A stretch of DNA of 55,403 nt from positions 1 to 55,403 of the forward strand of contig CABYTP010000002.1 of assembly GCA_902521955.1 (NCBI GenBank), in the 5' to 3' direction. Under the pieces are notes generated by a model, which was given only the letters and a program-made list of their open reading frames with translations, was not told the origin of the DNA and did not search any database. Below, piece after piece: positions 46,692 through 49,996 of the stretch. The position numbers and the translations under genes are program-made. How positions within the stretch are numbered: position 1 is the first letter of the stretch; every line of letters begins with the position of its first letter. Origin of the DNA: an uncultured Candidatus Actinomarina sp. GTDB lineage: Bacteria > Actinomycetota > Acidimicrobiia > Actinomarinales > Actinomarinaceae.

Positions 46692-48488
46692 TTATTCGAC
46701 CGTTACAGATTTAGCTAAATTTCTTGGCTGGTCAATTGACTCACCATTCAAATTTGCCACATGATAAGCAATGAACTGAAGTGGGATTATTGATATAACA
46801 GTAGAAAGCATTTCACTTGCCTCGGGAAGTGTAATGTAATCATTTGAAATATCCTGCAACTTCTTTGAGGTGCTATCTCCTACAGCAATTACATAAGCGC
46901 CTCTTGCTTTTACTTCCTGAACATTGCTTGTCGTCTTATCTAATAAGTGATGTTGACTAGCAGTAACTATTACTGGTGTTCCATCTTCTATTAAAGCTAA
47001 AGTACCATGCTTAAGTTCGCCTGCAGCTAGTGCTTCTGCGTGCAAATAAGAAATTTCTTTAAGTTTCAAAGCACCTTCTGCTGCTAATGCATAGTCAAGT
47101 CCTCTTCCTATAAAGTAAATATCATTCTTTTCATTTATAGATTTTGAGATCTTTTTTACTTGATTTTCACATTCAAATGTTTTTTCAATTAATGAAGGTA
47201 ACTGTTTTATTTCATCAAAGGACGTACCAAGTTTTTCTTCAGAGTCCCAATGTTTTGCTAAAAGTAGTTGCCCAACAAGCATCCCCAAATATGCTTTCGT
47301 AGAAGCAACTCCAATTTCTGGACCAACATGTAAATAGAATACACTATCAGCCATTCTTGCTAGTGAGCTTCCTACAACATTAACAAGTGCTAATACATGT
47401 GAACCATTTTCTTTTAATAATTCTGTTGCTGCAATAGTATCCATTGTTTCTCCTGACTGTGAAATAACAATGCCTAAATCATTTTCTCCAACAATAGGTT
47501 CTCTATATCTAAATTCTGAAGCAAGCTCTACACTTACAGGAACTCCGAGGACTTTCTCAAATAAATCTTTTCCAAAAAGCCCAGCATGATAAGCTGTACC
47601 ACAAGCAACTATCCAAATTTTTTCAAATTCTTTAGCTTTACTTAAATCAATTGGAATTTCTTCAGATCCAATCTCAAGTCGTCCAGAGATTGTTCGTTCA
47701 ATTACTTCAGCTTGCTCAAGGATCTCTTTATACATAAAATGGTCATAGCCAGACTTTTCTGCTTCAGATACTTTCCAATCAATTTCTTGAATTTCTCTTG
47801 AAATTTCATTCATATTTTCATCAAATAATTTAAATTTTCCGTTTGTAATTTCTACAAAGTCACCATTCTCAAGAAATATCATCTTATTTGTATGTTCTAA
47901 AATTGCTGCGGAATCAGATGCTAAAAAAGTTTCTCCTTCGCCAACACCTAAAACCAAAGGGCTCATCATTCTTCCTGCAACAATAGTTCCAGGTTCTTTT
48001 GTAGATGTCACCACAAGTGCGTATGTTCCATCTAGTTTCTTAGCTACATTTGTTACTGTTTCAAGAAGTTGTCCAGTCCACTGATTACCCAACTCTACAG
48101 CAACTACCTCTGTATCAGTATCTGATTCAAATTTAAAGCCTTTCTTGAGAAGGTCATCCTTCATTTCAGCATAATTTTCAATTATCCCATTATGGATAAT
48201 TGCAAATTCATTTTGGTTATCTGAATGAGGATGTGCATTAACATCATTTGGAACTCCGTGTGTTGCCCATCTTGTGTGTCCAATGCCAATATTGCCATTA
48301 ATTTTACTATCTGCAAGATGGTCTTTTAAAACCTGGAGCTTTCCTTCCTTTTTTTCAATGGTTAAAGTTTCTCCATCTAAAATTGCTACTCCAGCTGAGT
48401 CATAGCCCCTGTACTCTAATCTAGATAAACCGCCGATTAATATTGGTAAAGGTTCTTTAGGGCCTGAATACCCGATAATTCCGCACAT
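46692..48488 (-). CDS. glmS: Glutamine-fructose-6-phosphate aminotransferase
   Basis: 598 aa; 'MCGIIGYSGP', 'RLEYRGYDSAGVA', 'GHTRWATHGVPND', 'ISQSGETMDT', C-term 'DQPRNLAKSVTVE'. Confidence 0.98.
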   Translation of the reverse strand: MCGIIGYSGPKEPLPILIGGLSRLEYRGYDSAGVAILDGETLTIEKKEGKLQVLKDHLADSKINGNIGIGHTRWATHGVPNDVNAHPHSDNQNEFAIIHNGIIENYAEMKDDLLKKGFKFESDTDTEVVAVELGNQWTGQLLETVTNVAKKLDGTYALVVTSTKEPGTIVAGRMMSPLVLGVGEGETFLASDSAAILEHTNKMIFLENGDFVEITNGKFKLFDENMNEISREIQEIDWKVSEAEKSGYDHFMYKEILEQAEVIERTISGRLEIGSEEIPIDLSKAKEFEKIWIVACGTAYHAGLFGKDLFEKVLGVPVSVELASEFRYREPIVGENDLGIVISQSGETMDTIAATELLKENGSHVLALVNVVGSSLARMADSVFYLHVGPEIGVASTKAYLGMLVGQLLLAKHWDSEEKLGTSFDEIKQLPSLIEKTFECENQVKKISKSINEKNDIYFIGRGLDYALAAEGALKLKEISYLHAEALAAGELKHGTLALIEDGTPVIVTASQHHLLDKTTSNVQEVKARGAYVIAVGDSTSKKLQDISNDYITLPEASEMLSTVISIIPLQFIAYHVANLNGESIDQPRNLAKSVTVE

Positions 48489-48505
48489 ATATGCTCCATT
48501 CCAAC

Positions 48506-48656
48506 GAGCTTGTTGAAATTTTACTGCTTTAAACTACCTCTGTTCAACAATTACTTGCTGTTTTTAATAGCTTATAACGACCGCAGTGCCGAGTATGCAT
48601 CCGCCGAATTTTTCGATAACATACTACCTCGTCACCTTTTTCAAGGCCTGGCGCTT
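48506..48656 (-). ncRNA. glmS ribozyme (GlcN6P-responsive)
   Basis: Minus strand ...TAATAAGCGCCAGGCCTTGAAAAAGGTGACGAGGTAGTATGTTATCGAAAAATTCGGCGGATGCATACTCGGCACTGCGG...; core motifs AGCGCC, GACGAGG, UUAUCGA, UUCGGCGGAUG; directly 5' of glmS; TTGTTGAA...TTCAACAA distal stem. Confidence 0.92.
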
Positions 48657-48673
48657 ATTAGCTCGTTAATTTC

Positions 48674-48679
48674 ATTATA
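48674..48679 (-). promoter_or_regulatory. Probable -10 box for glmS transcript
   Basis: TATAAT on minus strand about 20 nt upstream of the predicted ribozyme cleavage site. Confidence 0.45.
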
Positions 48680-48688
48680 AATTATATT

Positions 48689-49996
48689 TCAGGTAAATAA
48701 ATGATTTTTAATATTGATTATCAATTCTTCACTAAATTTAGCTAGCTCTTCTTCACTTTCTGCCTCAACTAAAACTCTTAAAATAGGTTCTGTGCCAGAT
48801 TTTCTTATTAAGAATCTACCATCTAGACCAATTTCATTATATAAATTCTTGGCAATATCATTCAAGTCTTTAACCTGCTCGTCACTAGGCAAAAGATCTA
48901 GCTCTAAATTAATTAATTTTTGAGGATACTCAGTAATGTTAGACTCTTTAAATTCTGATAATGAAGTGTTAAAAAAAGCTAAGGCTTTTAATGAATAAAT
49001 CAAAGATACTAATCCATCACCAACAGGGAGCTCATCAGATATAATTATGTGACCTGACTGCTCACCTCCTAGCGAAGCGTTGTGCTCATTCATTGCTGAA
49101 GCTACATATTTGTCCCCGACAGACGTTTCTACATTGTGATAATTATTTTTTTCAACAGCTTTTTTAAAACCAAAGTTAGACATAACCGTTGAAACAACAA
49201 TATTGTTGTTTAATTTATTTATTGCTTCTAAATATTTTGCTATTAATAAAATAATTACATCTCCATTACACGGAGAACTATTCTCATCAACAAGAATTAA
49301 TCTATCAGCATCACCATCAAATGCTGCACCTAGTTGATTTTTGCCTAAATTAGAAATGAGGTTATCTAGATGTGTTGCTCCACAATTAGAGTTAATATTT
49401 TGACCATCTGGAGTATTTGAAATTATTTTAAATTTTGACTTCTTTGATTGAAATAGGTCTTCAATGATTTTATAAGAAGACCCATTTGCTGTATCAAAAA
49501 GAATATTGAATGAAGACAAATCAAAATCAATCAAGCTTTCAAGATATTCTAAATATGCATCATAACCTTTTGTTGAGGATTTTGAAATGGATGTTTTTTC
49601 AGGTAAAGAAATTGTTTGAAGATTATTTTCAATATTTATCTCTACATCATCAGAAAGCTTTGAACCAGCATCGTCGATTAACTTAATGCCATTATATTCA
49701 CTTGGATTATGCGAGGCTGAAATTATCACTCCTAGGTCATGTCCAAATTTTTCAAGCAATACAGGCATCGATCCTGAAGGTAATACTCCATAGTTAACAA
49801 CTTCAATCTTTTCAGAAAGTCCGTTACAAATCCAAGTGAGAAGTTCTAATGATGAACTTCTAGTGTCCAAGATAACTGCAACAGAAGCTGGTGATAATTC
49901 TTTTTCTACAGAAGAAAAGATTTTTGAAACTAAATCTTCATTTAGAGTTTTATTTGGAATACCTCGGATTCCATCAGTACCGAAATATTGTTTCAA
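48689..49996 (-). CDS. glmM: Phosphoglucosamine mutase
   Basis: 435 aa; 'YFGTDGIRGIPN', 'GVIISASHNPSEYNGIK', 'AFDGDADRLILVDE', 'FLIRKSGTEPILRVLVEA'. Confidence 0.95.
   Translation of the reverse strand: MKQYFGTDGIRGIPNKTLNEDLVSKIFSSVEKELSPASVAVILDTRSSSLELLTWICNGLSEKIEVVNYGVLPSGSMPVLLEKFGHDLGVIISASHNPSEYNGIKLIDDAGSKLSDDVEINIENNLQTISLPEKTSISKSSTKGYDAYLEYLESLIDFDLSSFNILFDTANGSSYKIIEDLFQSKKSKFKIISNTPDGQNINSNCGATHLDNLISNLGKNQLGAAFDGDADRLILVDENSSPCNGDVIILLIAKYLEAINKLNNNIVVSTVMSNFGFKKAVEKNNYHNVETSVGDKYVASAMNEHNASLGGEQSGHIIISDELPVGDGLVSLIYSLKALAFFNTSLSEFKESNITEYPQKLINLELDLLPSDEQVKDLNDIAKNLYNEIGLDGRFLIRKSGTEPILRVLVEAESEEELAKFSEELIINIKNHLFT

Follow-up and report, generated by a model that had tools for sequence, protein, structure and literature searches.

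A glmS ribozyme in Candidatus Actinomarina is enclosed by a conserved helix that may couple self-cleavage to glmS translation

The glmS leader of Candidatus Actinomarina almost certainly carries a genuine glmS ribozyme, another member of the known class, and we found that its two flanks pair with each other. The resulting helix, which we name P0, joins the predicted 5' end of the mRNA to the segment before the glmS Shine-Dalgarno (SD) sequence, and conservation and pairing make it very probably a selected RNA helix. As an explanation of the whole arrangement, we give even weight to a model in which a P0-clamped ribozyme would couple cleavage to lower glmS translation. The clamp helix, which is well supported as a helix, and its putative tie to the ribosome-binding site are the new part relative to the literature searched. 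In the titles and abstracts covered, a scope that does not take in the distribution papers of McCown 2011 and 2012, we found neither a P0 helix described alongside the glmS ribozyme nor an anti-Shine-Dalgarno, sequestration or expression-platform role for it. These paired flanks, which the original prediction did not see, are of more interest than the presence of the ribozyme itself.

All coordinates refer to the window, that is, the whole 55,403-nt stretch of Candidatus Actinomarina DNA that was analyzed; the glmM-glmS locus lies on its minus strand (Table 1), with an intergenic gap at 48489-48688. The GlmM model is the best family for the upstream product, although the score is below the cut-off. 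The host had been taken for a low-GC actinobacterium, and this was right: by GlmS similarity and kinship among genomes, on which we base the host taxonomy, it is Ca. Actinomarina (Acidimicrobiia). Its GlmS and that of uncultured Ca. Actinomarina AG-390-B19 share 96% identity, and the close named relatives come from Actinomarina, Actinomarinales, OCS155 and other Acidimicrobiia/Actinomycetota MAGs.

Table 1. Features of the glmM-glmS locus, in window coordinates
Feature	Position	Strand	Basis
glmS, 598 aa	46692..48488	-	TIGR01135, 756 bits (cut-off 418)
glmM, 435 aa, upstream gene	48689..49996	-	TIGR01455, 354 bits (cut-off 448)
Shine-Dalgarno GGAG of glmS	48494..48497	-	sequence; 5 nt before AUG at 48488
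Competing hairpin AUUUCAAC-AAGCUC-GUUGGAAU beside SD	48498..48519	-	MFE of cleaved RNA; paired-cell count
P0 3' strand AGCUCGUU	48503..48510	-	paired with 5' strand in 17 distinct sequences
glmS ribozyme (RF00234), full length	48520..48666	-	Rfam match
GACGAGG core strand; C-G-A pairs with U-C-G in pseudoknot P2.1	48627..48633	-	sequence and published numbering
Predicted cleavage site, A-1 (48655) / G1 (48654)	48654..48655	-	position 5' of GCGCC in family model
P0 5' strand AACGAGCU, predicted mRNA 5' end, would be released by cleavage	48660..48667	-	conserved; perfect complement of 48510-48503
Predicted transcription start, first A of AACGAGCU	48667	-	7th nt after -10 box, inferred
TATAAT, candidate -10 box of glmS promoter	48674..48679	-	conserved in Actinomarina leaders

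The Rfam covariance model RF00234 matched the window over its entire length (positions 1-167 of 167) with 85.9 bits (E 2e-18; gathering score 37 bits), and a genome-wide search detected one copy only (E 7.9e-21). The original prediction of a glmS ribozyme thus holds over the full length of the model; the cleavage site it had placed between A48655 and G48654 coincides with the family-model position, and both the order of the core motifs on the minus strand (GCGCC, GACGAGG, UUAUCGA, UUCGGCGGAUG) and the short P1 (CCUU-GAAA-AAGG) are as it described them; P1 has one G.U pair in addition. The match ends 31 nt before the glmS start. All pairs of P2.2 (C2-G56, G3-C55, C4-G54, C5-G53 and G7-C52, with the bulged A6) and of P2.1 (C28-G45, G29-C44 and A30-U43) are present (numbering from PMC7125110), and the last G of GACGAGG (48627) is the counterpart of the active-site G, B. 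subtilis G42 (numbering from PMC11602151 and PMC7125110). Among 17 distinct Actinomarina sequences these double-pseudoknot core pairs are invariant, while both-sided changes occur in P2, P4 and P4.1; with P0 counted in, 99.3% of the cells of the alignment are paired and eight pairs have double changes, as compared with 33-39% paired in slid-structure controls on the same alignment. The AAAAAC and GAACAGA strands of the purine-rich P4 internal loop are also kept. Self-cleavage dependent on glucosamine-6-phosphate (GlcN6P) would be expected from family membership. The Actinomarina element shares with the RF00234 ribozymes of B. subtilis, T. tengcongensis and B. anthracis the common core of P1, P2, P2.1, P2.2, P3, P4 and P4.1, and with known members the cleavage site, the GNRA loop in the P4.1 hairpin and the location before glmS; it differs from them in its shorter P1, in P0, an additional closing helix that the Rfam model does not include, in the position of the P0 3' strand at the ribosome-binding site, and in its occurrence in a genome without RNase J.

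The ribozyme is widely distributed among relatives of the window's genome. It was found in 27 of the 35 Actinomarina genomes, this one included, in 106 of 246 sampled Acidimicrobiia genomes (ten or more families) and, in a sample of the phylum, in 67 of 397, several families outside the class included. These counts are lower bounds, because a copy with a large insertion scored under the cut-off (L196 of genome G039, with 35.5 bits in the genome search and 62.9 bits over 266 nt when its locus was run through cmscan). At each of the 77 loci of our first set the ribozyme immediately precedes glmS, and in most of them glmM comes before it. The eight Actinomarina assemblies without a match also have no full glmS; as such negatives are uninformative, we dropped the idea of true ribozyme loss inside the genus. 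In 16 of the 18 ribozyme-free Acidimicrobiia checked, canonical GlmS was likewise absent. Most of those checked encode instead a GlmS-like protein of 1100-1190 aa with GATase_6 and SIS, exemplified by L122:808-4173 of G041 (TIGR01135 225 bits, under the cut-off of 418) and found also at L119-L121, L123, L127, L129, L131 and L132. A different gene context was seen in family f74, whose ribozymes scored 54.8 bits (L287, G294:C124:3979-8200) and 50.2 bits (L223, G316): in L287 the ribozyme is followed by a gene for GlnA, a type I glutamine synthetase (TIGR00653 533 bits), and glmS comes after it, so that a glnA-glmS operon is headed by a GlcN6P ribozyme, while no glmS was found in the 700 nt after the ribozyme of L223.

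Given this spread through genus and class, the ribozyme in the window's genome is ordinary for its relatives. The original prediction had treated an actinobacterial glmS ribozyme as a surprise and proposed either horizontal transfer or wider distribution; the host is indeed an actinobacterium, but the surprise is weaker than claimed, and it is the wider distribution that the related genomes bear out. Recent transfer from Firmicutes might be read from the GlmS tree, in which the Acidimicrobiia clade lies beside Clostridia (94/87, under the starring threshold). We nevertheless consider it very unlikely and dropped it as the explanation: the ribozyme occurs throughout the genus and in ten or more families of the class, Clostridia lack P0, and the GlmS phylogeny that the original prediction had called for unites f2, f7, f27, f29 and Actinomarina in a single clade (100/96) whose members all bear the ribozyme. 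Over the whole tree, the label for ribozyme presence changes at least five times.

The TATAAT pointed out earlier as a possible promoter gained weight from the comparison of leaders. Each of the 33 named Actinomarina leaders, that of the window among them, has TATAAT or TATACT and after it AACGAGC (with one G substitution each in L055 and L056); the spacing is a strict 6 nt in 32 leaders, with L073 at 5 nt, and from AACGAGC to the cleavage site the linker is 4-8 nt. It is plausible from this arrangement that glmS has an internal promoter with the mRNA starting at the first A of AACGAGC, in the window 13 nt 5' of the cut.

Just before the glmS SD stands GCUCGUU, the exact complement of AACGAGC, and the window has one pair more. 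First, the P0 cells are 100% paired in the 17 distinct Actinomarina sequences; A-U gives way to G.U at two pairs, and at the inner pair the window and L051 have U-A where all other sequences have A-U. Second, the P0 strands are 98-100% conserved, as compared with 64% for the -10 spacer and 86% for the linker. Third, pairing of the upstream flank (UP) with the downstream flank (DOWN), scored by an ungapped stacking score, exceeded that of dinucleotide-shuffled UP in 16 of 16 Actinomarina loci. We note also that the P0 5' strand with its flank, mostly AACGAGCAA in L052-L083 (window equivalent 48667-48659), is mirror-symmetric; since it reads the same backwards, a control with reversed DOWN is uninformative in Actinomarina. 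The 5' strand moreover has ACGAG in common with the core strand GACGAGG, so that the 3' strand could mispair with the core.

Complementary flanks were found in other Acidimicrobiia. UP x DOWN repeatedly beat dinucleotide-shuffled UP in f7, f20, f18, f15 and f29, with the same geometry throughout, in which UP lies about 9-16 nt from the cut and DOWN about 18-30 nt from the start codon, and with strand pairs that differ in sequence (GACCGGAG/CTCCGGTC, CGGAGAT/ATCTCCG, GATCAAGC/GCTTGATC and TGAATGCTGGAG/CTCCAGCATTCG). When the windows were fixed on f7, the pairing reached p<=0.05 in 15/16 loci of f1, 4/4 of f20, 2/2 of f29, 2/3 of f18 and 3/10 of f2, against 2/28 in Clostridia. Among the 44 distinct loci of f2, f7, f18, f20 and f29, P0 pairing reached significance in 31, and each of the controls (shifted UP, shifted DOWN, reversed DOWN) in 2. 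These values are to be read as counts rather than as a probability because the related loci of one family are not independent observations, the families were chosen after a first flank scan, and the f7 share is not out of sample, f7 having set the windows; in this distinct-locus test 3 of 28 Clostridia were significant. P0 is present in f10 farther from the SD, the flank-complementarity tests showed no P0 in f27 and f91, and several family-level tests of flank pairing (f27, f53 and f63) were not significant. Outside the class, complementary flanks can be seen in L210-L221 (f53), L090-L111 and L204-L206 (f69) and L096-L109 (f63), such as UAGGGGAU/AUCCCCUA in f69 and GAGAGGA/UCCUCUC in f53; they lie at other positions and are mostly not significant singly. 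For these reasons, although f53, f63 and f69 show many such flanks by eye, we rejected a P0 claim for all Actinobacteria.

A possible objection is that the flanks are DNA elements, such as an inverted repeat of a promoter or operator, or arose by chance. The P0 5' strand does lie at the predicted transcription start, and we have noted the family-level tests without significance (f27, f63 and f53). We regard this objection as highly improbable, however, in view of the 31/44 loci against 2/44 in shifted controls and of the same geometry recurring with different sequences in different families. The A-U to G.U changes point further to RNA pairing over a DNA repeat, because they keep the RNA pair but break a DNA dyad.

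We turn to what P0 as an RNA helix may do at the ribosome-binding site. In f7, f2 and f18 its 3' strand overlaps the segment able to pair with the SD by at least 4 nt in 16/25, 6/10 and 3/3 loci (25/38 in total, against 4/27 in Clostridia), and its 5' strand often carries an SD-like GGAG, so the anti-SD segment has two exclusive partners. In f20 the same comparison found a P0 strand without SD complement. We calculated SD accessibility with a simple partition-function model in which the ribozyme was replaced by an unpaired linker. Mean accessibility in f7 was 0.36 for intact RNA, 0.15 for cleaved RNA and 0.17 with a shuffled leader; the corresponding means in Clostridia were 0.49, 0.53 and 0.49. 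In the f7 model, the anti-SD would be held by an intact leader and, once released by cleavage, would close the SD. For f7-like families we lean slightly towards such a P0 translational switch.

In Actinomarina the alternative partner of the P0 3' strand would be the competing hairpin of Table 1, which has GUU in common with P0; 98.5% of its cells are paired in Actinomarina, where covariation is not informative. It abuts the SD, pairing upstream of it, and in some species runs through it. The hairpin and not P0 is the minimum free energy (MFE) structure in many Actinomarina species; P0 outcompetes it only in the window, L051 and the L070/L071/L083 group, or when no cost is charged for the loop, and in the window P0 replaces the hairpin in the predicted MFE. 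When the leader was trimmed to begin at the predicted start, SD accessibility averaged over 32 Actinomarina loci hardly differed (0.219 cleaved, 0.230 intact), and that of the window barely moves (0.72 cleaved, 0.74 intact). We therefore set aside SD opening by minimum free energy in Actinomarina, for which the simple folding model gives no support. P0 and the lower hairpin might coexist as a pseudoknot, which is beyond the reach of the folding programs used. Our confidence in a P0 translational switch in Actinomarina itself is accordingly tentative, below that for f7-like families.

The competing interpretation is an ordinary glmS ribozyme that acts through mRNA decay, with P0 only a structural clamp or 5'-end stabilizer: P0 would guard the intact mRNA from nucleases and aid folding of the core, and after cleavage RNase E/G would finish the message. 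In Bacillus, RNase J1 degrades the 5'-OH cleavage product, and decay is the established route of repression in B. subtilis (PMC10907184). RNase E/G was found both in Actinomarina and in the other genomes of the class. P0 would begin at nucleotide 1 of the mRNA; the SD-opening signal is weak in Actinomarina, and f20 has its P0 without SD complement. RNase J (TIGR00649) is another matter. It had no match in the window's genome and no full gene in any of the 35 Actinomarina genomes; the sole real match among the other 34 was a fragment in G033 with an in-frame stop and a score below the cut-off, and three genomes gave very weak matches of about 17 bits. All 24 other genomes of the class that we searched have RNase J. 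The Actinomarina genomes are 51-94% complete, which keeps the absence from being proven gene by gene, but joint absence over 35 genomes makes assembly gaps unlikely as the explanation. We conclude that the Actinomarina lineage has probably lost RNase J in nearly all genomes, and with it the RNase J1 attack on the 5'-OH product that Bacillus-type repression requires. The 5' sensor of RNase E, for its part, is not known to favor 5'-OH ends. The decay interpretation also gives no reason why, in f7, f2 and f18, P0 mimics the SD and shares bases with the segment that can pair with it. We judge it a serious contender, if rather improbable.

Another alternative is that P0 keeps the 5' product on the ribozyme, making cleavage reversible and tuning the dose response rather than translation. 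The P0 5' strand is indeed a few nt from the cut and forms 7-10 bp with other parts of the molecule. This proposal gives no account of a 3' strand placed at the SD, and pairing the SD in f7, f2 and f18, and product release by the B. subtilis ribozyme has been described as favorable (PMC11602151); we think it unlikely.

The translational model, by comparison, would proceed as follows. A ribozyme in the glmS leader would sense GlcN6P and cut its own mRNA, giving feedback on GlmS. Its starting point, read from the sequence, is a leader with the ribozyme, complementary P0 strands and, at the ribosome-binding site, a competing hairpin. GlcN6P would then, by analogy with the family, trigger a cut in the few nucleotides that link P0 to the core, severing the P0 5' strand covalently. 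Finally, the short leader would dissociate, the freed P0 3' strand would form the hairpin, and glmS translation would drop. In f7, f2 and f18 the freed strand would pair with the SD itself; in Actinomarina it would form the hairpin abutting the SD, or including it in some species, and the switch would stand in for the RNase J step. That the leader strand of Acidimicrobiia, the streamlined marine Actinomarina included, is an anti-anti-SD, which self-cleavage discards so that the SD then closes, we put a little short of an even prospect.

Translational riboswitches that sequester the SD, such as the adenine add, preQ1 and THF riboswitches, set SD access by alternative pairing of an anti-SD segment. 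The same alternative pairing would operate here, but the anti-anti-SD strand would be lost covalently by self-cleavage, with no ligand-induced refolding. In synthetic toehold switches, a strand complementary to loop and stem opens an SD hairpin; the arrangement proposed here differs in being natural and in cis, with the opening strand removed by a ribozyme.

If the model is true, these leaders contain a natural ribozyme-gated, one-way toehold-like switch, and the glmS RNA of these bacteria would be a true riboswitch with an expression platform. A ribozyme kept without RNase J raises the question of how cleavage still represses, to which P0 offers a concrete, testable answer; it would show natural coupling of a self-cleaving RNA to translation in a marine actinobacterium that is among the smallest free-living ones.
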